From Tichowtungia aerotolerans (GTDB lineage Bacteria > Verrucomicrobiota > Kiritimatiellia > Kiritimatiellales > Tichowtungiaceae), in contig NZ_CP047593.1 in assembly GCF_009905215.1 (NCBI RefSeq), positions 744,001 to 808,000 on the forward strand: a stretch of 64,000 bases of DNA. The letters run 5' to 3'. Made by a program: the position numbers and the translations under genes. This document shows positions 38,494-63,936 of this stretch, piece after piece (the stretch's first letter is position 1; every line of letters starts with the position of its first letter). The notes beneath the pieces are model-generated. The model was not told where the DNA came from. It worked only from the letters and a program-made list of their open reading frames with translations, and ran no database searches.

Positions 38494-38496
38494 GGG

Positions 38497-39408: not shown

Positions 39409-39522
39409 AAGAAATCCTTTCTTTGATTGAAGGAGATCATTGTGTCGCGCGGTACAGAAAAGCGGAATGGACAGGAGCACTAAAACATGTAAAATACGGC
39501 AAACTTAAATACATGAGGAGGA

Positions 39523-40541: not shown

Positions 40542-41696
40542 CTATTGGTTATCCCGCACAATATCTGTAATCTCCAACGAAGAAAGCGGAATAACAGCCA
40601 ACTCACAGTCCTCTTTACCAAGAGAGTAGATTACATACAAATTGCCGTCATGCTCATACGCGTAGGGATACTGCCATCCGGGCATCTTATGCTTCCCTTT
40701 AAATACCGGCTGATAGGTTACGCCCTGACGTATTTTGTACATGCGCACAAAAGCCTCCCCGCCGGGACGACTAACCGCCACAGCAAGGGTACTGCGGTCC
40801 ATGGGATCTCCATCACTGACATTGGCAACCAGATACCGCTGACCAGTACTGAGCATTCCCCCAAAAACCTTCGAACGAATCATCGGGAAATTACTCGCCC
40901 GAGCACGAGTCCATGAGCGACCAAAATCTGAACTGGCTGAAACGCCGGCCACGCCTGGAAAACTGGAACGCATAACAGCGGTGACCTGCCCATCATCAAC
41001 AATCAGTGTTGTCTCCGAACACTTATCGCCTTTTGACACCGGAATGGGAACCCGATCCCAACGAGTAAAATCGTCACCATGACTGATAAACACACAGGCC
41101 CAGAAACCCGTATAAACCCCGCCGCAAATCCAGTTCCCGTTTGCCATCCGCACCGGGGCATCCACCATCCCGCCGCCGCGCGCAACTATACCTCGCGACT
41201 CCCAGCGGCCCGTTTTCCCGTTCAACAGAAAAGCTTCAGTATTGACCTGGCGCACTCCGCTTGAATAGTCGAACTGCAGCGCAAAGAACCACAACTCACC
41301 ATTATGCGAGATGTATGCCCCGTGCGAATGGGCCAGCTCCCCGGGGCACGAAGAGGCAATCACCTCCAGCTCAGACCACGTCAGTCCGCCATCCGCCGAC
41401 TGCTTCCCGCAAACCCGTTCAGCATCGCTGTTTTCATCCACCGGGCTGGCCGCCCAGTTTGCATAGAACACGCCCTGATGCTCAACAATTGCCGTTCCCA
41501 ACAGAAACCGGTCGCCGTCCGAAACAGCCTGATGCACCGAAACATAATCGAGACCATCAACATACGGCAGATCTGCAACATGCTCCGGCAAAGCCGGGCC
41601 GTCCCACAGCACCTCATCGGCCAGCACGGAAACGGCACTCAACGTAACCAGCAATCTGAATATGAATTTCAAAATAGAATCAAAATACAAACACAT
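40542..41696 (-). CDS. Secreted sialidase-fold (BNR repeat) protein
   Basis: 384 residues from the ATG at 41696. A signal peptide covers about 1-26. It has a six-bladed propeller pattern with Asp boxes S-A-D-G-G-L-T-W (near 100) and S-S-D-F-G-R-S-W. Conserved blocks are D-E-N-S-D-A-E-R-V-C-G-K, A-H-S-H-G, G-G-G-M-V-D-A-P-V-R-M-A-N-G-N-W, H-G-D-D-F-T-R-W and G-K-E-D-C-E-L-A. It is strikingly similar to the first 390 residues of the giant protein at 49-54 kb, so the two are recent duplicates. Family membership suggests an exo-sialidase or another exo-glycosidase/lyase; the catalytic residues were not verified. Last gene of the minus-strand cluster. Confidence 0.78.
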   Translation of the reverse strand: MCLYFDSILKFIFRLLVTLSAVSVLADEVLWDGPALPEHVADLPYVDGLDYVSVHQAVSDGDRFLLGTAIVEHQGVFYANWAASPVDENSDAERVCGKQSADGGLTWSELEVIASSCPGELAHSHGAYISHNGELWFFALQFDYSSGVRQVNTEAFLLNGKTGRWESRGIVARGGGMVDAPVRMANGNWICGGVYTGFWACVFISHGDDFTRWDRVPIPVSKGDKCSETTLIVDDGQVTAVMRSSFPGVAGVSASSDFGRSWTRARASNFPMIRSKVFGGMLSTGQRYLVANVSDGDPMDRSTLAVAVSRPGGEAFVRMYKIRQGVTYQPVFKGKHKMPGWQYPYAYEHDGNLYVIYSLGKEDCELAVIPLSSLEITDIVRDNQ

Positions 41697-41705
41697 TGCG
41701 ACCAA

Positions 41706-44064: not shown

Positions 44065-45951
44065 TTACTGCAGCTCGGAAATCGGAATAACTGCCAACTC
44101 GGCGTTGTTATTGTTTACCCCTTCACCAAAAGCACTGTTCGAGTAACCGATATACAGCATCCCGTCCTTTTCAATCGCGCAGGGATAGGAGAGCTTGCAA
44201 TCCGCTTCGGACCACGGAACGTTGTCCTGAACGCTGTGGCGAACCAAACGAATCTCGCTCAAAGCCGCAGCGCCCGGACGACTGTATGCGATGGACAGCG
44301 GCGTACGGCTGTTTCCTCCGTCCGAACTGATATTTGCAATCAGATAATGCTGGCCGGTACTCAAGATTCCCGTACAGGGCTTACTGGCCGCCATCGGCAT
44401 ATTGGAGGCCTGAAGTTCCGTCCAGCTCCGTCCAAAATCACTGCTCTCAGCCACCAATGCATACGGCGTCTGCCACCACCAGCGGGAAATCATGGTCAGG
44501 TTGGCACCGTCAACAACAACCCCCGATTCGCCCCAAACGGAGCCCACCCCTTCGCCGGCCGGAATGACAATTAAATCCCAATTCATGAAGTCATCACCAT
44601 GACTGATGGCCACGGCCGGCAGGTTCTGACTGAGCGCCGTGCTGCTGGCCGGATAACCGTCAGGCGCGCAGATCCCGGCCATCACCCAGTTGCCGTCATC
44701 CATCTTCTCCGGCTGCTGCATCGGCCAGAATCCGTCCTCGATCACAACCCCTTGATATTCCCACTGGCCTGTTGTCTCATTCAACAGATAGGCTCGCGTA
44801 TGCGTGTTCTCAAAATCATTGGAAAACGCCCCCTGGAATGCCCACAACTGATCGACATATGATAAAAACACGCCATGGCTGATAGACAGAGATCCTTCCC
44901 CGTCTGCAATACTCTTGACGTCACCCCAGGTTTGCCCCCCATCATCACTGATTCGGTAATGGGCAGACTCTCCCTCTGTATTCTCTGCCCCGGTGTTATG
45001 ACCAAACGATGCATACAGCTGGCCTTTGTGCCACGCCAGGCCGACTCCATGAAGCCACTCGTAGCCGTCATTCTGAGGCTCATACGCCTTGATGGCACGA
45101 AACGCCACCCCGTCAACAGGTTTAAGATCTGCCGCTTTCGGAACCGACCACAGACTGACCCGCCCGTTCGTTTCATCCACATCCAGTCCCTCAAACGCAG
45201 TATTAATCCCAACGCCCTGAACCGTCAGGGCCGGGCGAACGGATTCATCAGAAACTTCTGAGGAATGGAAAATCAGCGCATTTTGACTCGCAGCCGTCTC
45301 ATCCGTCACCAGGAGAAATCCGGCATTGTCACCGCCCTGAATCCAGGACGCGATCGCGGCCAATCCTTCGGCAGAGTCGATTGTAAACGTGACGGTATCC
45401 CCAACGGCAACAGAGGCCGTATCAACGGAAACACTGCTCAGCACCGCCGAAATGCCGGCAGATGCCGTATCGTGGCCGACCCCCGGCCCGCCCGTCCACT
45501 CTCGCGAACCCTCAGCCAAAGAACTCCAGCAGGCCGAACCGCTCTGAACCGCAGTATTGGCAGTCCCTTCCACCCAGTCTTTGTTTGCCGTATCAATCAG
45601 CAAAAGCCTGAGCTCCATATTCCCCACATCAGAATGGACCTTGCCGGTACTGGCCACGGTCAGCGTCAATGACGCAGAAGAAACGGACGCAGCATCATTT
45701 ACCGATGCCAAATCAAAGCGCATCAGGGACCGATATCGGTCCGTACTGTTATTCATTCCGGCAATCAGATTTCCGTGAGCCCCCCAGTTCACCGAGGCAT
45801 ACGCATCGGCACTGTACATAAAATTATCGCCCTCCGCATCGAAACTCCGGAAAGACAAAGGTTGATCCGCAGCAAGAAGCTGCACGCTCAGCGCAAGCGC
45901 ATTCACACATCCGGCAATCCAGCACATCATCATTTTTCGCATAACATTCAT
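44065..45951 (-). CDS. Secreted DNRLRE-sialidase-fold protein
   Basis: 628 residues from the ATG at 45951 (a TTG two codons earlier is in frame). A signal peptide ends near L-L-A-A-D. Residues about 30-215 match the DNRLRE beta-sandwich domain (Y-R-S-L-M-R-F-D-L, A-S-L-T-L-T-V-A, G-D-T-V-T-F-T-I). About 220-628 is a sialidase-type propeller with S-D-D-G-G-Q-T-W and S-S-D-F-G-R-S-W Asp boxes and H-G-D-D-F-M-N-W. It is the divergent third paralogue of the sialidase-fold proteins here. DNRLRE domains often accompany polysaccharide-active enzymes. The enzyme activity is inferred. Confidence 0.75.
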   Translation of the reverse strand: MNVMRKMMMCWIAGCVNALALSVQLLAADQPLSFRSFDAEGDNFMYSADAYASVNWGAHGNLIAGMNNSTDRYRSLMRFDLASVNDAASVSSASLTLTVASTGKVHSDVGNMELRLLLIDTANKDWVEGTANTAVQSGSACWSSLAEGSREWTGGPGVGHDTASAGISAVLSSVSVDTASVAVGDTVTFTIDSAEGLAAIASWIQGGDNAGFLLVTDETAASQNALIFHSSEVSDESVRPALTVQGVGINTAFEGLDVDETNGRVSLWSVPKAADLKPVDGVAFRAIKAYEPQNDGYEWLHGVGLAWHKGQLYASFGHNTGAENTEGESAHYRISDDGGQTWGDVKSIADGEGSLSISHGVFLSYVDQLWAFQGAFSNDFENTHTRAYLLNETTGQWEYQGVVIEDGFWPMQQPEKMDDGNWVMAGICAPDGYPASSTALSQNLPAVAISHGDDFMNWDLIVIPAGEGVGSVWGESGVVVDGANLTMISRWWWQTPYALVAESSDFGRSWTELQASNMPMAASKPCTGILSTGQHYLIANISSDGGNSRTPLSIAYSRPGAAALSEIRLVRHSVQDNVPWSEADCKLSYPCAIEKDGMLYIGYSNSAFGEGVNNNNAELAVIPISELQ

Positions 45952-45974
45952 CCCCAACCTTATCTTCTCGACGT

Positions 45975-47060
45975 TTATTCTGCTTCAGCCGTCCCACAGC
46001 AAAGGGACTTATCCGGATCAGACGAAATCAGCTCCGCCGCCCCCGCGCCCTGCAGTTCGACAGCACTTCGGCCTTCCCGTTTTCGCCAACAGGATGCCAG
46101 CATCGAACTGGTAATGGCGCTCCACGGCCCAAAAGTGGCGGCAGCCATGGCCGCCTGAGTACTCTGAAGAATATTGAAAGCCAGTCCCGTGGCCATGCCG
46201 CCATTCTGTATTCCCACCTCAATGGCAACCGTTCGGCAATCCCGCGCACTCATCCGGAAGAACCGCGCGGCCTGATATCCCAGCAAATAACCCAGCGCGT
46301 TATGACACGCCGCCGCGCCGAAGAGAGCCAACCCCACTTTCAGAAGGTCATCGCGCGACAGGGCGATGGTCACGCCAATGATAATGCAGATTGAAAGCAT
46401 GGCCAGCGACGGCAGCACCTTGACCAAAACCTTTGCCAGCCGCGGCAGGTAGCGATGAATCAAAAGCCCGACCACCAGCGGCAGAATAATCATCTTAAAA
46501 ATTGAAACCATCATCGGCAGAAAAGCGATCGGAACGTATGTTCCGGCGAGCAGCTTCATCGCCAACGGAGTCATCAGCGGCGAGATCATCGTGGAACAGG
46601 CCGTCATCGTCACCGACAGCGGCACATTGCCGCGAGCGAGGTACACAATAACATTCGATGCCACCCCGCCGGGACAGGAGCCAATCAGAACCAGCCCGGC
46701 GGCAACGCCGGCCTCCAGTCCGAAAACCCGGGCACAAAGAAAGCCGACGAACGGCATGATGGTAAATTGAAGCCCCATGCCGATAAACACAGCACGGGGC
46801 ATTTTCAAAACCCGCCGGAAATCATCAAAGCTCAACGTCATTCCCATTCCGAAAAGAATGAGCTGGACGAGGGGAACGATCGTTCGCTTCAGCTCAAATC
46901 CGCCCAGCGAAACAAAACAGGCCGGAAATGTAAATGCCGCGGAAGCAAAGGCAAACACCATGAACGTAAACCCGAGACCTTTTAACCTATTCCCCAGGCG
47001 GGCATAGACTGCCAGGCCCGCAAACATGAACATGATTAAACTTCCAAGATAGATATTCAT
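45975..47060 (-). CDS. Bile-acid:sodium symporter (SBF) family transporter
   Basis: 361 residues with about ten membrane helices. It has the SBF marks G-M-G-M-T-L-S-F-D-D-F near 75, G-S-C-P-G-G-V-A-S-N-V-I near 130 and E-V-G-I-Q-N-G-G-M-A near 285, the sodium-site crossover motif. Members move organic acids with Na+. Placed between sialidase-type genes and two 2-keto-acid lyase genes, it likely imports the acidic product (sialic acid or a keto-deoxy acid). It would thus replace the usual NanT, SiaT or TRAP carriers. It ends in a hydrophilic tail rich in Ala/Glu. Confidence 0.85.
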   Translation of the reverse strand: MNIYLGSLIMFMFAGLAVYARLGNRLKGLGFTFMVFAFASAAFTFPACFVSLGGFELKRTIVPLVQLILFGMGMTLSFDDFRRVLKMPRAVFIGMGLQFTIMPFVGFLCARVFGLEAGVAAGLVLIGSCPGGVASNVIVYLARGNVPLSVTMTACSTMISPLMTPLAMKLLAGTYVPIAFLPMMVSIFKMIILPLVVGLLIHRYLPRLAKVLVKVLPSLAMLSICIIIGVTIALSRDDLLKVGLALFGAAACHNALGYLLGYQAARFFRMSARDCRTVAIEVGIQNGGMATGLAFNILQSTQAAMAAATFGPWSAITSSMLASCWRKREGRSAVELQGAGAAELISSDPDKSLCCGTAEAE

Positions 47061-47087: not shown

Positions 47088-48002
47088 CTAGATCAGCCCC
47101 AGGCGCACCAAGTGGCTGCGCATAATTTCAATTTCCTCCGGCGTGGCCGGTGCCAGCGGAAGGCGCGGCACACCCACGTTTAATCCACACAGATTCATAG
47201 CCGCCTTCCACAGCGGAATCGGGTTAATCCGTCCGTTGCTTCCAAACGCCTTAAACAGCGGATCCATGTCCATATGGATCTTACGGGCACCATTCACATC
47301 GCCTGCAAGAAACGCATCAATCATCGTCCGCATCATCTTTCCGAGAATGATTGATCCGCCGCTCACCACGCCGGCGGCTCCCTGAGCCAACCCGCAGAGT
47401 ACCATAATATCGTCACCGTTATAGATGGTAAAATCATCCGGGGTCACATGAGTGAAATCGCTCATCTGCGTCGGGTTGATTCCGGCTTCATCCTTGATCG
47501 CCACGATATTGGAATGCGCTTCAGCCAACCGTCCGAGCGTTTCTTTCTCAAGGTTGAACCCCTGGAAGATCGGAATGTTATAAAGCATTATCGGCAGCGA
47601 TGTGGCTTCCGCAATTGCAGAATAATGAAGGAACGCGCCCTCCTGATTCGGCTTGCAATAGCAGGGGCCCAGCACCATGGCGGCATCAAATCCGAGTTTT
47701 TCCGCTTCCTGTGTCAGACGAATAGCCTGACGCGTTTCACTGGAGCAGGCTCCGGCAACCAAAGGAACCCGGCCGGCGGCCGCCTCTTTGACAACACGGA
47801 AAAGCTCCAGCCGCTCCTCCAGACTCATCGCATTGAACTCACCGGACGTTCCGCCGATAATCAGCGAGTCACAATGATTCTGCTCAATCACATAGTTTGT
47901 CAGTTCCGCAGCAGCGGTATAATCCACATCCTGCGAGCCATCCTTGAACGGCGTCGCCAACGGAATGACAATATGCCCAAGTTTTTTACCTAAATTTTCC
48001 AA
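47088..48002 (-). CDS. DapA/NanA-family lyase 1
   Basis: 304 residues, a TIM-barrel class I aldolase of the dihydrodipicolinate-synthase/N-acetylneuraminate-lyase family. It has G-G-T-S-G-E-F (about 50-56), the Tyr in L-Y-N-I-P-I, the Schiff-base Lys in A-I-K-D-E-A-G near 170, and G-V-V-S-G-G. Sequence details look nearer to DHDPS, but the catabolic setting and distance from dapB suggest a sugar-acid lyase giving pyruvate. The next gene upstream encodes a second, different member (54-base gap). Confidence 0.85.
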   Translation of the reverse strand: MENLGKKLGHIVIPLATPFKDGSQDVDYTAAAELTNYVIEQNHCDSLIIGGTSGEFNAMSLEERLELFRVVKEAAAGRVPLVAGACSSETRQAIRLTQEAEKLGFDAAMVLGPCYCKPNQEGAFLHYSAIAEATSLPIMLYNIPIFQGFNLEKETLGRLAEAHSNIVAIKDEAGINPTQMSDFTHVTPDDFTIYNGDDIMVLCGLAQGAAGVVSGGSIILGKMMRTMIDAFLAGDVNGARKIHMDMDPLFKAFGSNGRINPIPLWKAAMNLCGLNVGVPRLPLAPATPEEIEIMRSHLVRLGLI

Positions 48003-48055: not shown

Positions 48056-48961
48056 TCACACCCGCACTTCGGGCAGCTCCTCGGGTAAAAGGTTGGCCTG
48101 CTCCAGCGCATAGCGCAGCTGCGCTGTCACATCCGGCTCCGGCTCCAGAACCGGCTTGCGCGGCAGGCCGCCGGTGCGTCCCAGCAGTTCAAGGAGCTTC
48201 TTCACGCGGCCGGGGAATGCCATTCCGGCACAGCTGACCATCTGCCAGACCGGAACCAGGCGGGAATGAATCTCCAACGCCTCATCAATCCGGCCGGCCT
48301 GGACCGCATCCCACTGCTGAACGCACAGCTCGGGGAACACAGTCAGAATCGCGGAAATCGATCCGGTCGCTTTCAGCAGATAATCAAAAACCAGCATATC
48401 GTCCTGCGCGCCGTACACATTCGTCAGTGCCCCGCAGGTCGACATCATTGCATTAAATCCGTGCATCCCGCCGACGCTCTGCTTAATCCCCATCACATTA
48501 CGGATCTGAGAAATATCCATCATCATCTCAGGAGTGATCGGATTCTGCGCAATCACATTATAGATAATGATTGGAAGATCCGTCGCGCCGGAGAGATCCT
48601 GATAAAACGAATAATTTCCGCGGGCATCAGTGCCATGGTAAAAAGTCGGCGTAACCATCAGCGCATCCGCCCCGGCGGCAACGGCGCGCGTTGCAGCCCG
48701 CACGGCATCCCGCGTGGAGTTGCGGATAATGCCGCAAACCAGCGGGCAGCGGCCGGCGGCTTCGTCTGAAAGAATCTCCAAACCACGCACCAGTTCATCG
48801 TCCAAAAGCAACGCGCCCTCGCCGGTACTGCCGCCCAGACTCAAGCCGTGCACCCCCGCATCGAGCAAAAAACGAACCTCGCTGCGCAACGCAGATTCAT
48901 CGACTTCACCTTCTGCATCAAACGGCGTAACCAACGGCGGAATCACTCCCTGAATACTCAT
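48056..48961 (-). CDS. DapA/NanA-family lyase 2
   Basis: 301 residues of the same aldolase family: G-G-S-T-G-E-G (about 43-49), I-I-Y-N-V-I-A-Q-N-P, Lys in M-G-I-K-Q-S-V-G. It is clearly divergent from its neighbour, so the pair is not a recent duplication. It might split another 2-keto-3-deoxy acid, or one of the two may be a dehydratase-type member. First gene of the 48.9-40.5 kb minus-strand run. The 170-base upstream gap (48962-49131) follows the giant gene and probably holds a promoter and the shared motif at 49007-49020. Confidence 0.83.
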   Translation of the reverse strand: MSIQGVIPPLVTPFDAEGEVDESALRSEVRFLLDAGVHGLSLGGSTGEGALLLDDELVRGLEILSDEAAGRCPLVCGIIRNSTRDAVRAATRAVAAGADALMVTPTFYHGTDARGNYSFYQDLSGATDLPIIIYNVIAQNPITPEMMMDISQIRNVMGIKQSVGGMHGFNAMMSTCGALTNVYGAQDDMLVFDYLLKATGSISAILTVFPELCVQQWDAVQAGRIDEALEIHSRLVPVWQMVSCAGMAFPGRVKKLLELLGRTGGLPRKPVLEPEPDVTAQLRYALEQANLLPEELPEVRV

Positions 48962-49020: not shown

Positions 49021-49131
49021 AAATCACACGAAAAAACGCAGTAAAGGTAAATGATAACAGGCAAACCGTTTTGACTTAATCCGCCGATTGAAATAATCGA
49101 TCTAGCATATCGACCGTAAAAAAACGACACA

Positions 49132-52100
49132 TTACTGCCCAACGACGCGGAAAAACTTCAACGCATCGACGAGCCGCACATAAATCACTCGGCCCGCATC
49201 TCCTGCGGAGGAATAACTCAGGTTAGTTACAATAAACCCATGCACGCCGTCATCCGAATGCGGCACACGCCCCCACCCCCCGTACGGCAGATTGGTTGAC
49301 GACTCCACAACATAACGGATCGCGGCATCCGGCATTTGAACAACCAGCCTCACAACATCACCGAAAACAACCGGCCCGCCGACAATTGAAGCCGGACGAA
49401 CCGGCTCCAGGGCCGGGAGATCATTCTTCTCCACAACTAAAACAACAAGATTCACCACGCCATTGGACACAGCAACCGTGCCGGCAAAGCCGACCGGCAA
49501 CTGCCCAACCTGCAACCCGTTATCCGTCAGCGCACCGGCGCAGGAAAAGAGCGTATAAGTTCCCTCCTGCAGACCGCCAAAATCACTCACATTCAATAAT
49601 CCATCCAGAACCAGCGAATCCACAGCAACCGAATCATTGCTGCCCGGCAGGCCGCCGAGCTCAAAATCCAACACCGACGTATCGTTAAGCGCCAAACTGG
49701 AAAGCGTCAGCGTCCCGGCACCTCCGTCCCCCGGGGAAAGCGTCCCGCCACCGGCAACCGCAACCGACCGATCAATCGTTCCGCTTCCGCCCAGAACTGC
49801 CGCACCGCCGACAGACACCGTCGCCGCGCGCGAGTCCAGCACGCCATTGACCAGCAATGTTCCGGAAGAAACCACCGTATTTCCATAGCCATTATTCGCC
49901 CCGAAAAGAACCAGCGCCCCGGCTCCCGACTTTGTCAAGGTCGACGACGCCCCGCCGATATTCCCGTGAATCTCAACTATATTGCTTTCCTCAATCGTCC
50001 AAGCCTGATCATCCCCAAGATATAATGAGCTTTGAATCGTGTTCGTGCCGCCCGACTCAGCCGCCCGCGAACTGATTCCACCCGAACCAATCCCCCAAAC
50101 CGAACTGCCATTGCTTCCGACCTCCCAGCCTGCTCCCAGAAAATCAACCCCGCAAATATTCCTGGAGGCATTGATTGCCGGTTGAAAAGCCACATCCTGA
50201 CTGTTCACAAACTTCGCAAAAGAAGACGTAAACGAACTTACCGGCATCACGCCGGTTTCCCAGTTGGACCCGTTGGTCCAGTCCGTATTATTGCTTCCGT
50301 CCCACGCAACAACATCCCGCAACGTTAAGCGAACGGCCCCGCCGGAAACGGATAGACTCCCCTCAAACCCATAGGGCAGCGCGCCGGAGCGAAGCTCCAA
50401 GCCATTGTCCGTCAGCGCACCGCTGTATGTGATCAGCGTATATGTCCCGGCCGACAGCCCGCCCGAATCGGTCACACGAAGCCGCCCATCAAGAACCAAA
50501 TCCGCCGCACCGATCTGATCACAGCCGCCAGCCGAACCGAGCTCAAAATCCAAAACCGAAGAACTGCCCAAGGTCAGATTGGAAACCGTCAACTCGCCGG
50601 CCCCATTACCTCCCGGAGCCAGGATCCCGCCATTAAACACCTCAACAGACCGATGAACCGTCCCCGTGCCGCCAAAAATCGCCGCATCCCGCACCGAGAC
50701 TCCTGCGGCACGAGAATCGAGCACGCCATCAACCAGCAGCGTTCCTTCAGCCACAACCGTTACTCCATATGAATTCTGCGCACCCGAAAGAATCAATCTT
50801 CCCGGACCGGTTTTCGTTAAGGAAGAAGCCGCCCCACCGACACTGCCGGCGGCGACCAGCGTATTGCCCGCGCTGACAAACCAGTCCTGGCCATCCCCCA
50901 GATGCACCCGGGACTCAACAACATTAAATCCCCCGGACTCACCGTCACTGACGACAACACCTCCGCACCCAATGCCCAGAACCGACGCCCCATTACTGCC
51001 AACCGTCCAACCGGAGCCTGCAAAATGAACTGCATTCACATTTCTGGAGGCATTAATTACCGGCATATTCAAAACCGCAGCACTGCCCTCAAACCTGGCA
51101 AGCGCCGAATAATAATCACTGAAAGGCATCGCGCCGGCGACCCAGTTCTGCCCATACGTCCAGTCTGTATTATTACTGCCATCCCAAACCGCCACGTCCG
51201 GCGCCGCAAACACATTCAGGCAAACCGCGGTACTGACAACTGAGATCTCACCAACAAACCCGTACGGCACATCTCCCATCTCCAGCCCGTTATCACTCAA
51301 TACACCGTCAAACGAAATCAAGGTGTAAGAGCCCGGAGAAATATCCCCCAGCGCCACAATATCCAACACCCCATCCAGCGTCAGGTTTCCCGTCTCAATC
51401 CGATCCACCTCATTTGATGGTCCCACCTCAACCACCAGCCGGGACTCAGCGTCGAGAACCAGCTCGGACACATTCAGCACCCCCGAGCCCTGATCGCCCG
51501 GAGAGACAGTCCCTCCCCCCAAAACACTGACAACACCATCGACCACGCCGGTTCCGCCAAAAACCGAATGGTTACTAACCGATACCGGCGCACAAAATCC
51601 CGCCGGGCTGTTTACCAAAAGCGTCCCGGCGCTCACACAGATTTGGGCAACCGAATTTGACCCGGCGAGAACCAAAGTCCCCTCGCCGGCCTTCTCAAAC
51701 ACCCGGCCGGCGCCACTCATTCGCCCGTCCGCAACAAGCGTATTGCCCGCCGCAACGTCCCACGCCTGATCCGCCCCAAGATAGACAGCCGACTGAATCC
51801 AATTCGTACCCGCCCCGGCACTGACGACCCCTTCGCCGCCGATCCCCCACAGAGAACTCCCATTCCAGCCCACCGTCCAGCCGGAATCGGAAAACTGAAC
51901 CCCGCCGATGCTTCTCGAAGCATTGATTGCCGGCATATTCGGAACCACCGAAGCATTACCGAACCGGGCGACTTCCGTATTGAAATCATTCACAGGCATC
52001 ACGCCGGAATCCCAGTTGGCTCCATAGGTCCAATCCGAATTATTACTCCCATCCCAGACAACCGGCCCCGTCACAGCAAGGCTAACAACACCGGCCGAGA

Positions 52101-54120
52101 CGGAAACACTGCCCTTAAAACCGCTCGGCATGCCACGAACCTGCAGCCCATTGTCCGTTACCGCTCCGCTGCAGACAAATAACGTGTACCCCCCCTCTTC
52201 CAAAGCATCGGCATCTGAAACATCCAACAACCCGTCTAAAACCAAATCCCCAACCACAACCCGGTCACTGCTCCCCGACAGCCCATCCAACTGAAACCGA
52301 AGCACCGAATTGCTGCTCAATGCAAGCCCGGACATCGAAAGCGCTCCCGGCCCGCCGTCGCCGGGCTCCAGAACCCCGCCATCGGAAACCGAAACCGGCG
52401 CACCGATCGTTCCATTCCCAGACAACACAGCCCCTTCACAAACAGAAACGGGTGCACTGAAACCGGCGGAACTGTTAACCGCCAAAGTCCCGTTCGAAAC
52501 AACAACCCCCGCCATCGCATTGGTTCGCCCTGCCAGCACCAGCTTTCCGCCACCGGCCTTGCACAACGTCCGCGCGCCTGTAACTGAACCATTGGTCACA
52601 ACCAGTGTATTTCCTGCGCTGACTGTCCAGCACTGGTCGGATGCCAGAAATAGATTCGGGTGAATCGCATTCACTCCCAACGCCCCTTCCGCAGCAAAAG
52701 TGATACCGGCGGAACCAATCCCCCACGTGGACGTTCCGTTACTGCCAACCGTCCAGCCGCCACTGTCAAAATCAACCCCATGAATATTTCTCGATGCATT
52801 AATCGTCGGCATATACAAAACCGCCGCACTGTCAACAAACTCGGCAATATCGGTTGTAAAATCAGTAACCGGCATCGATCCGCACTCCCAGTTCTGGCCG
52901 TTGGTCCAATCCGAACTGACACTGCCATCCCACGTTACCGCAGCAAACAGCTGATCGGTCGCCGGAGCCACCCATTCAATAGAACCGGAGGTATTCAGCG
53001 CAGAGATCGGAATAATCGCCAGCTCGCAATCTTCCTTCCCCAGCGCATAAATCACATACAGATTTCCGTTGTACTCATACGCATACGGATAGTGCCACCC
53101 CGGCGTCTTATACAAACCTTCAAGCAATGGCTGCGGAGTTCTGCCCCTCCGAACAGTCCACATGCGGCAAAAGCTTTGCGTCGCGGGCTGACCAACCGCA
53201 ATGACCAAAGTGTCGCGATCATTCCCGCCCCCATCGCTGACATTCGCAATCAAATACGGCTGACCATTGCTTAACACTCCCCCAAACGGCTTGGATTGAA
53301 CCATGGAAAAATCGCTGGCCTGAGCCGCACTCCAGCTGCGCCCGTAATTCTGGCTGACCGAAATCCCGGCCGCCCCGGGAAAGCTCGACCGCATCACCGC
53401 GATCAGTTTGTCATCATAAACAAGAATGGTTGTTTCCGAACACTTGTGATTCGGCACAATCGGAACAGGAACCCGATCCCATCTGGTAAAGTCATCTCCA
53501 TGACTGATAAACGCGCAGGCCCAGAACCCGGTATAAACCGCCCCGACAATCCAGTTCCCATTTGCCATCCGGACCGGCGCATCCACCATCCCGCCGCCCG
53601 CGGCAACAATCCCAAAGGATTCCCACTCGCCCGTCTGTTCATTAAGAAGAAACGCCTCCGTATTCACCTCTCGGGCTCCATCGGGCGCATACTCAAAGCG
53701 CATGCCGAAAAACCAAAGCTGCCCGTTATACGAAATATACGGTCCGTGCGAATGGGCCAATGTCCCCGGCAGCGATGGAACAATGACTTCTTTATCGGAC
53801 CAGGTCAGCCCGCCATCCGTCGACGTTTTTCCACACACGCGCTCCGCATTGCTGTTTTCATCACGCGGCCCATTGGCCCAATTCGCGTACAGGATTCCAT
53901 TATGCTCAACAATGGATGCCCCAAGCAAAAACTGATCCTCTCCCCGCACCGCCTGATGCACCGCGACATAGGTCGCTGAAGATACAGAGGGCACATCGCG
54001 AACATTGTGAGGCAGGTTCGGGCCCGTCCAAAGTTCTGGAACCTGCCCCAACGCCGGCAGGCTGTTCATTATTCCACACCACACCAATAACAGATTCTGC
54101 GCAAACCTTATCGCCACCAT
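49132..54120 (-). CDS. Giant secreted sialidase plus four-repeat beta-strand protein
   Basis: 1662 residues from the ATG at 54120 (signal peptide about 1-26, ending L-G-Q). Residues about 27-390 form a sialidase-type propeller with S-T-D-G-G-L-T-W and S-Q-N-Y-G-R-S-W. Four tandem beta-helix units of about 290 residues follow (near 393-690, 690-978, 978-1273, 1273-1565). Each starts W-D-G-S-x-x-(S/T)-D-W-T and carries the autotransporter-type L-x-K-x-G-x-G-x-L-x-L repeat. The last 90 residues form a tail domain ending K-F-F-R-V-V-G-Q. It is probably a surface-displayed exo-enzyme on a long stalk. No barrel is present, so it is not a classical autotransporter. Confidence 0.85.
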   Translation of the reverse strand: MVAIRFAQNLLLVWCGIMNSLPALGQVPELWTGPNLPHNVRDVPSVSSATYVAVHQAVRGEDQFLLGASIVEHNGILYANWANGPRDENSNAERVCGKTSTDGGLTWSDKEVIVPSLPGTLAHSHGPYISYNGQLWFFGMRFEYAPDGAREVNTEAFLLNEQTGEWESFGIVAAGGGMVDAPVRMANGNWIVGAVYTGFWACAFISHGDDFTRWDRVPVPIVPNHKCSETTILVYDDKLIAVMRSSFPGAAGISVSQNYGRSWSAAQASDFSMVQSKPFGGVLSNGQPYLIANVSDGGGNDRDTLVIAVGQPATQSFCRMWTVRRGRTPQPLLEGLYKTPGWHYPYAYEYNGNLYVIYALGKEDCELAIIPISALNTSGSIEWVAPATDQLFAAVTWDGSVSSDWTNGQNWECGSMPVTDFTTDIAEFVDSAAVLYMPTINASRNIHGVDFDSGGWTVGSNGTSTWGIGSAGITFAAEGALGVNAIHPNLFLASDQCWTVSAGNTLVVTNGSVTGARTLCKAGGGKLVLAGRTNAMAGVVVSNGTLAVNSSAGFSAPVSVCEGAVLSGNGTIGAPVSVSDGGVLEPGDGGPGALSMSGLALSSNSVLRFQLDGLSGSSDRVVVGDLVLDGLLDVSDADALEEGGYTLFVCSGAVTDNGLQVRGMPSGFKGSVSVSAGVVSLAVTGPVVWDGSNNSDWTYGANWDSGVMPVNDFNTEVARFGNASVVPNMPAINASRSIGGVQFSDSGWTVGWNGSSLWGIGGEGVVSAGAGTNWIQSAVYLGADQAWDVAAGNTLVADGRMSGAGRVFEKAGEGTLVLAGSNSVAQICVSAGTLLVNSPAGFCAPVSVSNHSVFGGTGVVDGVVSVLGGGTVSPGDQGSGVLNVSELVLDAESRLVVEVGPSNEVDRIETGNLTLDGVLDIVALGDISPGSYTLISFDGVLSDNGLEMGDVPYGFVGEISVVSTAVCLNVFAAPDVAVWDGSNNTDWTYGQNWVAGAMPFSDYYSALARFEGSAAVLNMPVINASRNVNAVHFAGSGWTVGSNGASVLGIGCGGVVVSDGESGGFNVVESRVHLGDGQDWFVSAGNTLVAAGSVGGAASSLTKTGPGRLILSGAQNSYGVTVVAEGTLLVDGVLDSRAAGVSVRDAAIFGGTGTVHRSVEVFNGGILAPGGNGAGELTVSNLTLGSSSVLDFELGSAGGCDQIGAADLVLDGRLRVTDSGGLSAGTYTLITYSGALTDNGLELRSGALPYGFEGSLSVSGGAVRLTLRDVVAWDGSNNTDWTNGSNWETGVMPVSSFTSSFAKFVNSQDVAFQPAINASRNICGVDFLGAGWEVGSNGSSVWGIGSGGISSRAAESGGTNTIQSSLYLGDDQAWTIEESNIVEIHGNIGGASSTLTKSGAGALVLFGANNGYGNTVVSSGTLLVNGVLDSRAATVSVGGAAVLGGSGTIDRSVAVAGGGTLSPGDGGAGTLTLSSLALNDTSVLDFELGGLPGSNDSVAVDSLVLDGLLNVSDFGGLQEGTYTLFSCAGALTDNGLQVGQLPVGFAGTVAVSNGVVNLVVLVVEKNDLPALEPVRPASIVGGPVVFGDVVRLVVQMPDAAIRYVVESSTNLPYGGWGRVPHSDDGVHGFIVTNLSYSSAGDAGRVIYVRLVDALKFFRVVGQ

Positions 54121-54290
54121 GTGTCTTCCCCCAGTTGAATGAGTCTTCTGAAATCGATGAAACACCATCCATTCGCCCGCCACACCTCAGCATCCGCCTT
54201 CGCATATAAATAACACGCAACCATCCCAAGGAAGCACACCACGAGACACAGTAAAGACAAAACAAAAGCAACCATTGATTAACAACGGAT

Positions 54291-54326
54291 TCACTGATAT
54301 AAATCACTGATTTAACATAAAATCAG
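54291..54326. promoter_or_regulatory. Candidate operator between the giant gene and the FCD-AraC regulator
   Basis: Direct repeat TCACTGAT at 54291-54298 and 54304-54311, overlapping an inverted repeat CTGATTT (54307-54313) / AAATCAG (54320-54326). It lies 6 bases before the regulator start, in the 211-base divergent region, so it may mediate autoregulation and control of the giant gene. Confidence 0.4.
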
Positions 54327-54331
54327 CAGAT

Positions 54332-55129
54332 ATGAATGATACAAACATAACATCTCCTGAAAATTTCCGCATGCTTTGCGACCTAAGAGCGGAGCTGGAA
54401 ATTTTTGCCGTGCGGCAGATCTGCAAAAAGAATGACAGGGCCTGGGTTGAAGCTCAGTTCACCCCCATTTTAAAGCGCCTTCTAAAGGCAACAAAAGAGC
54501 ATGACAGCGCCGCATTCACAAAAGAAGACCAGGTTTTGCACAAAACAATCATTGAACTGGCGAACCTGCCTGTTTTGAAATCCATTTGGGAAACCGTCTG
54601 GGAAACTCTGGCCCGGTTTCATCGTGAAAGCTTTTCCAAATACTGGCCGGACCTGCGAATATTAATGCGCGAACATGAATATTTAATCAATACCATCTGC
54701 TCCTGCGATCTGTCGGCCGCTGAAGACGGTGTGCGAAATCACCTTCAGGCCATCTGGTTTCGAATCGCACAAAAAGAAGATGAAACCCAGTTGCAAACAA
54801 GCCCGCTGTCGCGCGCCGTCTCCTACATTTCATTCAACCTTCAACACCCGCTAATCCTCAACCAAATCGCCGGCGAGATTGCATTCACAAGCGCCGGGCA
54901 TCTCTCAAAACTCTTCAAGGATCGTTACGGAAAAAGCTTTCAAAGCTATGTTCAGGAGATGAGGCTCGACAAAGCCGCGACCCTGCTGCAGCAAACAGAC
55001 CTGCCGATTTCAACAATCGCTCACCGCGTAGGATACCAGGACATCTCCCGGTTCGGACAGCACTTCAAACGACGCTTTGAAAAGACCCCCAACCAATGGA
55101 GACAACACACTCGGGAAAAAACAGGCTGA
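54332..55129 (+). CDS. Chimeric regulator: FCD ligand-binding domain plus AraC DNA-binding domain
   Basis: 265 residues. Residues about 12-150 match the FCD domain of GntR/FadR-type regulators: L-R-A-E-L-E-I-F-A-V-R at the start, E-D-Q-V-L-H-K-T-I-I-E-L-A-N-L-P-V-L (Asp/His ligands), R-E-H-E-Y-L-I-N-T-I and D-G-V-R-N-H-L (further His). Residues about 165-262 form an AraC domain with both helix-turn-helices (I-A-G-E-I-A-F-T-S-A-G-H-L-S-K-L-F-K; G-Y-Q-D-I-S-R-F-G-Q-H-F-K). The N-terminal GntR winged helix is missing; a stop codon just upstream rules out a longer frame. NanR, the sialate regulator of enterics, is a GntR-FCD protein, so an FCD sensor beside sialidase/NanA-like genes makes sense. 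Confidence 0.82.
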   Translation: MNDTNITSPENFRMLCDLRAELEIFAVRQICKKNDRAWVEAQFTPILKRLLKATKEHDSAAFTKEDQVLHKTIIELANLPVLKSIWETVWETLARFHRESFSKYWPDLRILMREHEYLINTICSCDLSAAEDGVRNHLQAIWFRIAQKEDETQLQTSPLSRAVSYISFNLQHPLILNQIAGEIAFTSAGHLSKLFKDRYGKSFQSYVQEMRLDKAATLLQQTDLPISTIAHRVGYQDISRFGQHFKRRFEKTPNQWRQHTREKTG

Positions 55130-55159: not shown

Positions 55160-56203
55160 TTATTTCGAGCCGCTCTTTTCCATCGTGCCGAAAAAATCCT
55201 CCAGAATCGCATCGGCGTCAAAATCATCCCACACGATCATTTTCATCGGATTATCCGGCCGCTCCTCCCATCCATTCCCGACGAGAGCCGGGCGCGGCAT
55301 CACCGTTGAGCGCGCCCAGTCCGGATTTTTCACGACAGCGATTGCGCCCACATCAAACAGGGATCGATAGGGTGGGTTTCCATGCTGCCGCGCACAGGAA
55401 AACAGGCTTTTCGAATAATCCCCGAAACAGCTGAATTCTCCTCCATGACGCCCCGTCACCGATTGGGAAAGGTGCGGCCCGAGCCCCGGCATCCTGCGAA
55501 AAATCTCCTCCTGATACGCTTTGATAACCCACGTCCCGCCGGGATTAACCGTATCCTTATAACGAACCGTAACCATTTCAAACTCAACAGAAGATTCCAG
55601 CAGGTACCGAACCGCCGACAAATCATCCATCATATTATACTCCCCCGGCTTGGGATAGTTCGACCCCAGCCACACAACCTTCACGTTGGGAATAATCGAC
55701 GGATCCCTGGCCAGCGCCAAAGCAATATTGGTCAGCTTTCCAATCGGCAACAGAACCAGCTTGCGGTCGGATTTGATCTTCGCCTGCTGGATAATAAAAT
55801 TAACGGCTTCGTATCCGTCAAAATAAGGCATATCGATGTTCGGCAGAATATCTTCGAAGATGCCGTTTGCCCCACGATACAAAGGAACCTTGAGATAACG
55901 ATTGCAAAGCTTCACCACCCGAACCGCCTCTTTCATCTGCTCACGAACATCCCCGCCATTGCGCGTTTTATTAACCGTAATCCCCTCCACATCAAAAACG
56001 TCATCACTAAACAGCGCATAGGCAATTGCATGCTGATCGTCCGTTTCATTGTTTGCATCCGAATCAATCAGCACCCGTATTTTTTCGGGCGATTCAGCAA
56101 GGGCGGATGCCGCACCGGCTGCATATCCCAAATGCGGAATGAGCATTCCAATCACAACCAGGCAAACCATTACATTGATCGTCGTTACATATCTCTTCAG
56201 CAT
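55160..56203 (-). CDS. Exported inosine-uridine-type nucleoside hydrolase
   Basis: About 347 residues from the ATG at 56203. A signal peptide covers about 1-29 (ending Y-A-A-G). The nucleoside-hydrolase calcium site is V-L-I-D-S-D-A-N-N-E-T-D-D-Q-H-A (near 45-58) with L-L-P-I-G-K-L-T-N-I-A-L-A in the middle. Near the C-terminus lies F-D-V-G-A-I-A. The canonical D-T-D-P-G-x-D-D is changed to D-S-D-A-N-N-E-T-D-D, as in a subgroup of secreted members. It splits the N-glycosidic bond of ribonucleosides. It is followed upstream by ribokinase and a sugar transporter in one operon. Export of the hydrolase makes sense if ribose is imported afterwards. Confidence 0.82.
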   Translation of the reverse strand: MLKRYVTTINVMVCLVVIGMLIPHLGYAAGAASALAESPEKIRVLIDSDANNETDDQHAIAYALFSDDVFDVEGITVNKTRNGGDVREQMKEAVRVVKLCNRYLKVPLYRGANGIFEDILPNIDMPYFDGYEAVNFIIQQAKIKSDRKLVLLPIGKLTNIALALARDPSIIPNVKVVWLGSNYPKPGEYNMMDDLSAVRYLLESSVEFEMVTVRYKDTVNPGGTWVIKAYQEEIFRRMPGLGPHLSQSVTGRHGGEFSCFGDYSKSLFSCARQHGNPPYRSLFDVGAIAVVKNPDWARSTVMPRPALVGNGWEERPDNPMKMIVWDDFDADAILEDFFGTMEKSGSK

Positions 56204-56262
56204 CTTTTTCCCCAATCCGTCATCCCTGTTATATCCCAACATCGCCCCTGCAAACCAAGCCG

Positions 56263-57165
56263 TTACAACTCCAGTTCATTCAGAAAAGGCGCAGACGACT
56301 GCGCCCCCATCCGTGTCACAGAAATCGCCGCCGCCTGATTAGCGAACCCAACGGCCGCCTCAATCGACAAACCATCCGCCAGCCCGACAGCCAACGCTCC
56401 ATTAAATGTATCGCCCGCCGCCGTCGTGTCAACCGCATCAACATTCCGCGCCGGCACCAGCACAGAGAGCGCTTCCGACTGCACATAGGCCCCTCGCGAA
56501 CCCAGCGTGACAACAACCGTCCCGACCCCTTTGCCGCGAAGCACCTCCGCAGCGCGCTGCGCAGATTCCTGATCGGTTACCTTAATGCCGGTCAAAATCT
56601 CCGCCTCGGTTTCATTCGGGGTAATAAAGTCCAGATTCGCCAGAAGCTCATCCGAAACCGACTGCGCCGGCGCAGGATTCAAGATCACACACTTTCCCTT
56701 TTTGGCGCCGAGCGCCGCCGCATGCTCAACAGTCGCAAGCGGGCTTTCCAACTGCATTAAAAGCACGGAAGCAGACTCAATCTGAACAACGGCCTTATCG
56801 ACATCCCCAGCACTCAACGCATGATTTGCACCCGACGCAACCGCAATACAGTTTTCACCTTTTTCATCGACCATAATAACGGCAACGCCGGACGGATTCT
56901 CCGCATCAACCGCAATAAAATCTGTATTGATTTTTTCTTTTCCAAACCCCTGAACAGATTCACGGCCGAATATGTCATCGCCTACCCGGGCCACAAAAAC
57001 AACCTCAGCGCCCAGGCGTCTTGCAGCAACAGCCTGATTCGCTCCCTTGCCACCGGGATTCATTAAGAACTCGCCTCCCAGAATGGTTTCTCCCGGGACC
57101 GGCAGATGGTTGGACTTGACCACCATATCGGTATTTGAACTTCCAACAACAACAACCTTTGCCAT
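56263..57165 (-). CDS. rbsK: Ribokinase
   Basis: 300 residues from the ATG at 57165 (M-A-K-V-V-V-V-G-S-S-N-T-D-M). PfkB family: N-P-G-G-K-G-A-N-Q-A-V-A-A-R-R-L-G near 37-53 binds the sugar. D-T-T-A-A-G-D-T-F-N-G-A near 250 carries the catalytic Asp and anion hole. It phosphorylates D-ribose at O5. Ribose-5-phosphate could then feed PRPP synthesis by prs. It lies 60 bases before the nucleoside hydrolase and 54 bases after the transporter gene. Confidence 0.93.
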   Translation of the reverse strand: MAKVVVVGSSNTDMVVKSNHLPVPGETILGGEFLMNPGGKGANQAVAARRLGAEVVFVARVGDDIFGRESVQGFGKEKINTDFIAVDAENPSGVAVIMVDEKGENCIAVASGANHALSAGDVDKAVVQIESASVLLMQLESPLATVEHAAALGAKKGKCVILNPAPAQSVSDELLANLDFITPNETEAEILTGIKVTDQESAQRAAEVLRGKGVGTVVVTLGSRGAYVQSEALSVLVPARNVDAVDTTAAGDTFNGALAVGLADGLSIEAAVGFANQAAAISVTRMGAQSSAPFLNELEL

Positions 57166-57218
57166 AACAACGTCTCCCCTGCTCACTGATTCAAAAACAA
57201 TCAAAACACCTGTTCAAC

Positions 57219-58217
57219 TTATCTGCCTGCCATAATAATCATTGCAATCCCCGCCACAAAACAGAGAAACATAAATGCAAGCAGCACATTGGTGCTTTTG
57301 GACGCCCCCCTGAATTCCTTCCAGACAAACACTCCCCAAAGCGCAGCGACCAGCGTAGCGCCCTGACCCAGCCCGTACGAAATGGCATATCCCGCCTTCC
57401 CGGCCGCAATCATGCTGAGCGACATGCCGACACACCAGATTGCTCCCCCCAGAACCCCGGTCAAATGCGTCTTCAAACCTCCGGCAAAGTACTGCCTGTA
57501 ACTCACCGGCTCGCCTTCAATCGGCTTGCGCATGAAAATCGTGTTAAACACAAAGTTGCTGATAAAAATACCCAGCGCAAAAACTACAACCGCCGAATAG
57601 GACGTCATTTTCCCGACTGCCGGATTAACAAAATCAACCGACATTGAAGCCGCCACAAAACGATAAAACAGCGCCATCAACACGCCGGCAAAAGCCGAAA
57701 TAACAATCCCCTTGGTTGAAACGTTCAAGCCGGAACCGGACATACTCCTGTAGGCCTGCGCATCCATAACAATTGCGGCGGCAATCAGCCCAACTCCCGA
57801 AAACAACAAAACCGCATCCCCCTGCGGAGCGCCGATGTAATTAACCAGCACCCCCATAATCAGGGCAATCCCGATTCCAACCGGAAATGCAACCGCCATC
57901 CCGGCAATGGAAATCGCCGCCACCAGCAGAATATTCGCCGCATTAAAAACAACTCCACCCAGAAACGCACTCCCAACGCTCGACAGCTCAGCCTGCTGGA
58001 TATCAGCCAGAAAACTGCGCCCCCCCTCCCCGAAACTTCCGATCGAAAAGGCAGAAATCAGCGATAGCAGAAGCAGCCCAACGACATAGTCCCAATAGAA
58101 AAGCTCAAAGCGCCACGTCTTGGCCGCCAACTTTTGTGTATTGGCCCACGACCCCCAACACAACATGGTTACGACCGTAAACAAAACAGCAATTGCATAA
58201 CTTGAAACTATATACAT
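57219..58217 (-). CDS. GRP/RhaT-like sugar transporter
   Basis: 332 residues with about ten membrane helices of the drug/metabolite transporter superfamily. It has the GRP-type N-terminus T-M-L-C-W-G-S-W-A-N-T-Q-K and C-terminal Y-A-I-S-Y-G-L-G-Q-G-A-T-L-V-A-A-L-W-G-V-F-V-W-K-E-F. Relatives carry ribose, glucose or rhamnose. Next to ribokinase and a nucleoside hydrolase, ribose is the likely cargo. First gene of the operon. AGGAGAGG precedes the ATG. Confidence 0.87.
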   Translation of the reverse strand: MYIVSSYAIAVLFTVVTMLCWGSWANTQKLAAKTWRFELFYWDYVVGLLLLSLISAFSIGSFGEGGRSFLADIQQAELSSVGSAFLGGVVFNAANILLVAAISIAGMAVAFPVGIGIALIMGVLVNYIGAPQGDAVLLFSGVGLIAAAIVMDAQAYRSMSGSGLNVSTKGIVISAFAGVLMALFYRFVAASMSVDFVNPAVGKMTSYSAVVVFALGIFISNFVFNTIFMRKPIEGEPVSYRQYFAGGLKTHLTGVLGGAIWCVGMSLSMIAAGKAGYAISYGLGQGATLVAALWGVFVWKEFRGASKSTNVLLAFMFLCFVAGIAMIIMAGR

Positions 58218-58594
58218 TTTTCACCTCTCCTGCTTTGATCAGACCCAATGCGCAGGGCATCACAGAACCTTCCGCACGAAATCATCACGTCATTCAAAAA
58301 AAACGGCACCCACTCAGCGATATGCTTTCGCATATTTAACGAGCCTTCTGACGTCAATAACAGCGACCGACAACCCCGTAAAGGCATAATTATTCAACCT
58401 GTTTGTTTTGAATGGATTCGCGGACTGATAAATTCGATTTGGCATATAAAACCAGATTTATCGAAAAAAAAGATGTGCTGTCTGATTACAGACAAAATCA
58501 AACACATATCAATCCGCAACAACGGATCGTGTTGCCTGCAAACTTAGCGCTGCCGTCGAACACCACACTGCGGCCTCTCAAAAGAAGCATCTAT
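58218..58594. other. Intergenic region upstream of the ribose operon
   Basis: About 375 bases with no gene. It is AT-richer than its surroundings and holds the TGATAAATTCGATT copy (58426-58439), which resembles the motif upstream of lyase 2. No clear -35/-10 pair was chosen. Confidence 0.5.
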
Positions 58595-62041: not shown

Positions 62042-62185
62042 CTACATCTCCGTCAGAATTCCGTCAACCATCCAAACCTGCCGGCGGATCACCCGCGCAT
62101 AGGCGCCGGAAGGCGCCCCGGCGCACCGTGAACTGACGATGCAAAGCCGGATGAATTTCTGATCATCCGTCAGGTCAAAAGATCC
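62042..62185 (-). other. Coding-like open stretch beyond the sulfatase stop
   Basis: In the frame shifted relative to the sulfatase end, about 47 codons are open. They begin V-E-G-S-F-D-L-T-D-D-Q-K-F, continue through S-G-A-Y-A-R-V-I-R-R-Q-V-W and end at a TAG. No start codon fits and the left part overlaps the sulfatase C-terminus. It could be the tail of a decayed gene or chance in a GC-rich stretch. Confidence 0.2.
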
Positions 62186-63936
62186 TTCAACTCAAACGGC
62201 GGAAGTCCGGCCCGGTCCTGCTGCTCTTCCCTCCAGCAGGGCGCATAGTGGCTGCCTTGACGAAACCGCTCAACCCACTCGGGCTTCTCCGATTTTTCAA
62301 GCCACGATTCCAAACGTTTCCTCATTGTACGCTTCACCGGTTCGCTTTCAGCGGATGCAATCAAATTGTTCTGCTCATAGCGATCGTGTTTGCGGTCGAA
62401 CAACATCCACTCGCCGGGATGATTGTTCCAATCGCCAAACCCGACATTCCGGTTTCCAGAACGCCAATGTCCCTGCACGGAATACAGATGGCGTTTTGTG
62501 ATGACCGACCGATGGATCGGCTGGGCCGGAGTCCCGTTGTGGCAGTTACTGATATTATAGACGAGCACCGATTCCGGATCGGGGCCGTCACCGCTCAAAA
62601 CGTTCCGGCTGTGATCCACCCCGTCGAGCGAATCCAGATAAGCCAGGCATTCGTGCGCATCCCGGGTTCCGGTACGGCGCAGTTCCTCCGTCAGTCCGCC
62701 GAGTCCGCACAGCGTCGGGAACAGGTCAATTCCGGCGATCAGCGCATCGCACTCGCGGCCGGGAGCCTGAATCTGTCCCGGCCCCCACGCCAGGAACGGC
62801 ACATGCGTCGAAGCATCGTTCGGATATTTTTTAGTTCCGTTTTCTGCCCCGTACTGTCCGTTCATCCCGCCGTGGTCGGAGGTGTAAATGACAATGGTGT
62901 TGTTGCGCACATCCGGCGGCAGCGCGTCGACCGCATCCAGAACCCTCCCCAGCTGGTCGTCCGTGGCCGTGACCGACGCATAATAATGCCAGCACGTTTC
63001 GCGATGCGCCTCACGGGTTTCATCGTAGGGATAAAATTTCAGGGACTGCGGGTCATACTGATCCAGCGTATGCGGCGGATGGTTCGGCTTGCCCGGAACC
63101 CGCCCGCTGGAATATTCCGAGCGGGCGAATCCGACCTCATCCCATTTGCCGACCGGCCACTTTGCCTGTTTCATGTAGTCAAACGGCGAATGCGGATCCT
63201 GCAGCGCCAGCACCATAAACAGCGGTTTCTCGGAAAACTCATGCTGCTGAAGCACGCCCAGCGCCTGATCGGTTTCGCCGATGATTTTATAGGGATGAGA
63301 TGGATACGCCGGACGTTTCCCGGCAGCCGGGACTCCACTGTACGGCACACCGCTGCCGTCCATCAGCATGTCATCCGCCGGGGGGCAGGCGAACGGTTCT
63401 CCGTTTTTTTTCAGGCTCAATTCTTCATGAAACTCTCCGGACCAGATATAGGAAAGATCGTACCCTGCAATCTGCGCATTGAGATTCAGCCCCTGATGCC
63501 ACTTGCCGACATGAACCGTCCGGTAGCCGGCGTTTGAAAACATATATCCAAGCGTGGCATTGCGCTGGCGCTCCGCCATGTTTCCGGACTGATCCATCCG
63601 GAACTGCAGATCCATATGATTGTCGATGTGGCCGGTTTGCCAGGCCCACTTGCCGGTCTGCATCATCGCCCGATACGGAGAACAGAGGGGATACGTGGAA
63701 AAGCAGTTGGAGAAATTCACGCCCTCCCGACGCATCCGGTCCATGTTCGGGGTTTTGATATCCACAAACTCAGACGTGAACGACATGGCGTTGTAGCGAT
63801 GCGTGTCGCTCAGCACAAAAATAACATTGGGAGACTGTTTCTTCCCGCGAGCGGCAACTGCTCCGAACGCCGGCATGCCGGAGACCGAAGCGATGGTCGC
63901 CCCGGCCGTTTTTATAAAATCACGTCTGGATTGCAT
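62170..63936 (-). CDS. Tat-exported sulfatase
   Basis: 588 residues. The N-terminus is a twin-arginine signal, S-R-R-D-F-I-K-T-A-G followed by a hydrophobic stretch to about 28. Sulfatase features are V-L-S-D-T-H (first metal site), the maturation motif C-S-P-Y-R (Cys at about 85), G-K-W-H near 140 and Y-T-S-D-H-G-G in the middle. Tat export means it folds, and probably gains formylglycine and calcium, in the cytoplasm first, unlike the Sec-type sulfatases at 1-4 kb. Substrate unknown; it resembles heparan- and fucoidan-type enzymes in size. AAGGAAG precedes the ATG. It may supply the ABC importer downstream. Confidence 0.92.
   Translation of the reverse strand: MQSRRDFIKTAGATIASVSGMPAFGAVAARGKKQSPNVIFVLSDTHRYNAMSFTSEFVDIKTPNMDRMRREGVNFSNCFSTYPLCSPYRAMMQTGKWAWQTGHIDNHMDLQFRMDQSGNMAERQRNATLGYMFSNAGYRTVHVGKWHQGLNLNAQIAGYDLSYIWSGEFHEELSLKKNGEPFACPPADDMLMDGSGVPYSGVPAAGKRPAYPSHPYKIIGETDQALGVLQQHEFSEKPLFMVLALQDPHSPFDYMKQAKWPVGKWDEVGFARSEYSSGRVPGKPNHPPHTLDQYDPQSLKFYPYDETREAHRETCWHYYASVTATDDQLGRVLDAVDALPPDVRNNTIVIYTSDHGGMNGQYGAENGTKKYPNDASTHVPFLAWGPGQIQAPGRECDALIAGIDLFPTLCGLGGLTEELRRTGTRDAHECLAYLDSLDGVDHSRNVLSGDGPDPESVLVYNISNCHNGTPAQPIHRSVITKRHLYSVQGHWRSGNRNVGFGDWNNHPGEWMLFDRKHDRYEQNNLIASAESEPVKRTMRKRLESWLEKSEKPEWVERFRQGSHYAPCWREEQQDRAGLPPFELKDLLT

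Follow-up and report, generated by a model that had tools for sequence, protein, structure and literature searches.

A gene in the 64,000-nucleotide stretch of the Tichowtungia aerotolerans genome analysed here (the window) encodes a regulator with an FCD ligand-binding domain at its N-terminus and an AraC-type double helix-turn-helix at its C-terminus (Table 1), and this pairing is conserved among related bacteria together with a characteristic set of neighbouring genes. The explanation that we consider probable is that the protein is a one-component regulator of a sugar-acid or keto-acid module, with a carboxylate-sensing FCD domain driving an AraC-type DNA reader.

Domain architecture and distribution of the family

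A Pfam search of the regulator placed FCD (PF07729) at residues 15-139 with 67.4 bits (E 2e-18, cut-off 24.3) and HTH_18 at residues 183-258 with 83.3 bits (E 1.5e-23), with the HTH_AraC model likewise above its cut-off. The same search returned no match to any GntR model in the ORF, which sets the protein outside the GntR/FadR winged-helix group. The first in-frame stop upstream of the gene lies 8 codons ahead of the ATG and rules out a hidden GntR head.

An AlphaFold2 model of the window protein, run with four relatives, had a mean pLDDT of 86. The N-terminal half of the model matched the FCD domains of McbR (Z 15.9 over 141 residues), TM0439 (15.3), DhdR (15.3), and NanR (13.1), and the C-terminal half matched the AraC-family chains ToxT, Rns, and 3oio (Z about 11 over 103-112 residues). 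A Z near 15 is ambiguous for a lone helical bundle, and the FCD sequence profile is independent evidence; the profile score above the curated cut-off and the predicted helical FCD fold agree in assigning the N-terminal half to FCD, and the C-terminal double helix-turn-helix of about 100 residues places the protein in the AraC/XylS family. These results bear out the initial annotation, which had proposed an N-terminal FCD domain joined to a C-terminal AraC pair, with a GntR part excluded by an upstream stop, and had suggested an FCD and HTH_18 domain search, a structure prediction, and a survey of the architecture and its neighbours as checks. Two further FCD proteins are encoded in the genome (one contig, 3.88 Mb), and both are ordinary GntR-FCD proteins.

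A class-wide search recovered one full-length relative and a phylum sample three more. Scanning genome contigs gave four loci, all from Verrucomicrobiota/Kiritimatiellota (PVC group), with peptide patterns that would miss independent FCD-AraC fusions in other groups. An FCD-only profile run on the orders around two of these loci yielded hits in 17 of 289 and 14 of 190 genomes, which are overlapping sets, and every ORF that it found ends in an AraC domain. The total is 21 distinct FCD-AraC loci in 20 genomes of Verrucomicrobiota/Kiritimatiellota. As at least 20 related bacteria keep the pairing, it represents a real regulator family and not an accident of one genome, and the exchange of DNA-binding part that had been read from the window alone holds across all of these loci. 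Identity to the window protein defines two subfamilies, A (29-36%) and B (39-51%), and by whole-protein identity the window protein groups with subfamily B.

A single origin of the fusion would be compatible with the FCD tree, where it is poorly supported (62/35) and the GntR branches are long. The viral contigs searched held no relatives of the regulator. On plasmids, full-length tblastn matches were weak, the best being a GlxA-type protein, and one match (H4) falls in an unannotated stretch. Two loci with suggestive profile scores (L048 and L049) were rejected as members since their N-terminal part is different and not FCD.

Table 1. Features of the regulator locus, with positions counted from the first letter of the window.
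Feature	Position	Strand	Remarks
FCD-AraC regulator gene	54332..55129	+	265 aa ORF; model pLDDT 86
FCD ligand-binding domain (residues 15-139)	54374..54748	+	R19, D66, H70, H115, H137
AraC-type double helix-turn-helix, HTH_18 (residues 183-258)	54878..55105	+	
In-frame TGA stop upstream of regulator start codon	54308..54310	+	
Operator-like site at regulator start (AAATCACTGATTTAACATAA)	54301..54320	+	Relatives' matrix score 9.2, rank 21 in window
Partner operator-like site (CAGCATCCGCCTTCGCATAT)	54188..54207	+	Weak alone: 5.0, rank 116
Composite operator-like element	49069..49110	+	Second-best matrix match; 108-149 bp upstream of aldolase start 48961
Composite operator-like element	58406..58447	+	Upstream of permease-ribokinase-hydrolase operon; best matrix match in window, 14.8
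Partner operator-like site	58316..58335	+	112 bp upstream of 58428; best 112-bp pair, 27.9
BNR_2 protein, predicted sialidase-type propeller	40542..41705	-	Z about 30 to sialidases
BNR_2 protein	44065..45957	-	About 50% identical to BNR beside subfamily-B relatives
SBF (PanS-like) transporter	45975..47060	-	52-65% identical to transporter beside subfamily-B relatives
DHDPS-superfamily aldolase 1	47088..48002	-	
DHDPS-superfamily aldolase 2	48056..48961	-	Start at 48961
Divergent BNR_2 (sialidase-fold) protein with PATR repeats	49132..54183	-	True start likely near 54120
Nucleoside-hydrolase-family protein	55160..56242	-	Candidate second target operon
Ribokinase, operon of 55160-58217	56263..57204	-	Above NCBIfam cut-off
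Ureide-permease/RhaT-like transporter	57219..58217	-	First gene of ribokinase-hydrolase operon

Conserved neighbourhood and operator-like element

In the window, both aldolase genes share a strand run with the divergent BNR gene, whose BNR domain is 66% identical to the product of 40542-41705. The genome encodes only four SBF proteins. It also holds 14 DHDPS-superfamily genes, which suggests heavy use of keto-acid aldolases. Just past the far end of the BNR, aldolase, and SBF gene run lies an AraC-type regulator with a PocR sensor (39618-40418, plus strand). The products of two genes on the minus strand (41706-42665 and 42707-43981) have no Pfam match; they show 38-61% identity to one another and to repeats at 49132-52974 (minus strand) in the C-terminal portion of the large BNR protein, which carries PATR autotransporter-type repeats. 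Further out, an FGGY kinase, an isomerase, and a class II aldolase stand in a row at 35624-39480 (minus strand), the isomerase being weakly similar to the sulfoquinovose isomerase SftI (88 bits, cut-off 700), and a sulfatase-family gene occupies 62170-63936.

Parts of this neighbourhood recur in the relatives. In 7 of 10 subfamily-B loci (L104-L107, L111-L113) genes for a DHDPS-family aldolase and an SBF transporter run divergently from the regulator, and it is the transporters of these seven loci to which the identity range in Table 1 refers; a BNR_2 protein related to that at 44065-45957 is found at L104-L107, L109, and L110. The window aldolases share only about 30% identity with the aldolase of the subfamily-B cassette. 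In subfamily A the neighbours are variable. An SBF transporter, an APH-family kinase, an HpcH/HpaI aldolase, and a BNR_2 protein accompany the regulator at four loci (L075, L076, L098, L099), a recurring group that looks like an undescribed catabolic cassette; the kinase and the aldolase occur at L041, BNR or related glycosidase-like domains at L077 and L103, and an MFS transporter with a Gfo/Idh protein in three closely related genomes. The kinase of the four-locus cassette begins with a conserved YYWKCDRP stretch. As two different aldolase families occupy the same setting, what the module requires would seem to be a pyruvate-yielding cleavage. Comparison of these loci supports an evolutionary link between the FCD-AraC swap and a module of aldolase, SBF transporter, and sialidase-fold protein.

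The regulators of subfamily B, which the motif analysis covered, also share an upstream element. The motif GATTT(C/G)GCATA is present at least twice per locus upstream of nine of them, always on the strand of the regulator, with 19 sites at no more than two mismatches compared to 0.5 expected in shuffled sequences; the exact motif is absent at the subfamily-B locus L113. The spacing of the outer sites is 111-113 bp at seven loci and 88 bp at the other two. The regulator-proximal site has a second half lying 22 bp upstream of it, a shift that came out best in 9 of 9 loci, although some loci are close relatives and the nine are thus not independent. A 22-bp direct repeat is as expected for an AraC-type dimer and points to an operator read in the AraC manner.

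We built a 42-bp weight matrix from the relatives only, without the window sequence, and scored about 128,000 window positions with it. Scores of 14-15 were reached in 22-28% of shuffled windows, so that only the location of the matches is convincing. The match at 49069-49110 (local shuffle p 2e-4) is placed where the relatives predict a site, and the promoter of the permease-ribokinase-hydrolase operon was picked as a target after its match was seen. The window contains exactly three pairs of 20-bp sites at a spacing of 111-113 bp in which both sites score positive and the sum exceeds 8: one pair lies upstream of the aldolase operon, one upstream of the permease-ribokinase-hydrolase operon, and one in the interval from the regulator to the BNR gene. 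The last of these pairs has a spacing of 113 bp, as in the relatives, and its site at the regulator start overlaps an inverted repeat (54307-54313/54320-54326). The regulator's own intergenic region gave a poor composite match (p 0.037). The binding site originally proposed (54291-54326) does overlap a match to the element, but a weak one, and the better matches lie at 49069-49110 and 58406-58447. One GATTTSGCATA match also occurs at 3149-3159. This motif alone showed no genome-wide enrichment (6 sites in the genome of the window, 1-4 per relative genome), and we therefore claim no wide regulon.

The best match of the element in the window sits upstream of the facing nucleoside-hydrolase, ribokinase, and transporter operon, and a weak relative of the nucleoside hydrolase also lies near the LR76 regulator, as would be expected if the protein served that operon only and took its ligand from riboside breakdown. 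We judge this unlikely, since the aldolase promoter scores almost equally and the operon was not found beside subfamily-B regulators, whereas aldolase and SBF transporter are.

The sensor site and its probable ligand

In an alignment of the family, R19, D66, H70, H115, and H137 were invariant in 21 of 21 members, so that the Asp and His positions that had seemed kept are indeed kept, and an arginine with them. These residues align with R128, D172, H176, H222, and H244 of E. coli NanR, which bind the carboxylate and the Zn2+ in the structure of NanR with Neu5Ac (PMC8012715). The position of NanR Q221 is Glu in 19 of 21 members and Gln in 2 of 21. With these residues the regulator has the Asp, His, His, His set of the metal-binding FCD subgroup. 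FCD proteins with such a metal site bind several small carboxylates, and the site is common to many FCD proteins; because the tetrad marks metal-binding FCD proteins generally, it argues for a carboxylate and not specifically for sialic acid.

This distinction bears on the NanR-like role suggested in the initial annotation. A functional analogue of NanR would have as its ligand Neu5Ac or a close nonulosonic acid, freed by the BNR enzymes and cleaved by NanA-like lyases. Besides the metal and arginine residues, the conserved module with its pyruvate aldolases and transporter would suit such a role, as would a GlcNAc-2-epimerase family protein encoded elsewhere in the genome. The model of 40542-41705 (pLDDT 75) has a predicted sialidase-like fold (Z 30.7 over 306 residues), and the BNR neighbours share the predicted six-bladed propeller and the Asp boxes of GH33. 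The divergent gene described as a sialidase is a BNR gene and a sialidase in predicted fold only; the F/Y-R-I-P motif with the first active-site arginine was absent in 4 of 4 BNR proteins examined. The sole solved relative of 40542-41705 by sequence is a beta-L-arabinobiosidase (E 9e-6). Similarly, the two lyases reported nearby are there, but they belong to the DHDPS/NAL superfamily only: the Lys and YN of the E. coli NanA active site are kept, L142 and E192 are not, and both proteins are nearer to DapA than to NanA structures. NanR was the NCBIfam FCD match of the regulator at 35 bits, far below its cut-off of 260, which does not make it a NanR, and no NanE was found in the genome. Sialic acid use by this locus is possible but not supported, and a functional analogue of NanR is in our view improbable; with a non-diagnostic metal site and no E192, RIP motif, or NanE, the ligand cannot be called "known", as the initial annotation had it. 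FCD domains dimerise in known structures, and the domain might be a ligand-free dimerisation scaffold in a constitutive AraC-type regulator, but a bare scaffold would not need the four metal ligands and carboxylate-binding arginine that all 21 members retain unchanged, even at about 30% identity, which makes this the least credible of the readings.

We therefore return to the one-component regulator of a sugar-acid or keto-acid module. Here the metal-loaded FCD domain would bind a small carboxylate, most likely a sugar acid or a 2-keto acid from the pathway encoded nearby, and it would very probably form the dimer as well. The AraC domains may then read the direct repeat of 22-bp period in the promoter of the aldolase/SBF-transporter operon and also at the adjacent permease-ribokinase-hydrolase operon and, weakly, at the regulator itself. 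The outcome would be ligand-dependent activation plus autoregulation, with activation favoured only because AraC-type outputs usually activate. Going further, one could tentatively suppose that the FCD-AraC family and a catabolic module of sialidase-fold enzyme, SBF importer, and interchangeable pyruvate aldolases of two families act on a sugar acid with no known use of this kind; operator pairs about 112 bp apart would suggest looping control.

Relation to known regulators

The regulator has a common FCD fold with NanR, TM0439, DgoR, McbR, and DhdR of the GntR/FadR group (Z 13-16) and, compared with NanR, the same D-x3-H, H, H metal set and helix-1 arginine. It differs from all five in that its FCD domain is N-terminal, the GntR winged helix is lacking, and a C-terminal AraC domain reads the DNA. 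With one-component AraC/XylS regulators it shares the C-terminal double helix-turn-helix, a sensor and DNA binder in one gene, and a direct-repeat operator-like element, but its sensor is an all-helical FCD domain and not a cupin/arabinose-binding, PocR, or DJ-1 domain. E. coli XylR (4fe4/4fe7), which was among the sequence and fold matches, likewise joins a sensor of a foreign family to an AraC output; its sensor is LacI-type, however, and its ligand class is probably different too.

We found no description of FCD joined to AraC in the open-licence literature. For the AraC/XylS family, 106 companion domains have been reported (PMC5882156), and the main text of that paper does not name FCD. 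Foreign sensors on AraC readers were already known from these companion domains and from XylR; as AraC accepts many sensors and XylR is one such swap, the FCD-AraC protein is a variation on known sensor swaps.

Work on FCD sensors has dealt with GntR-type proteins, in which the winged-helix heads precede the sensor and move when it binds its ligand. The existence of a natural and conserved family of FCD-AraC proteins means that an FCD sensor works with a different DNA reader placed behind it, and it makes it possible to test which aspects of FCD signalling do not depend on the output. The conserved neighbourhood and the operator-like element provide concrete predictions for an uncharacterised carboxylate pathway of Verrucomicrobiota.
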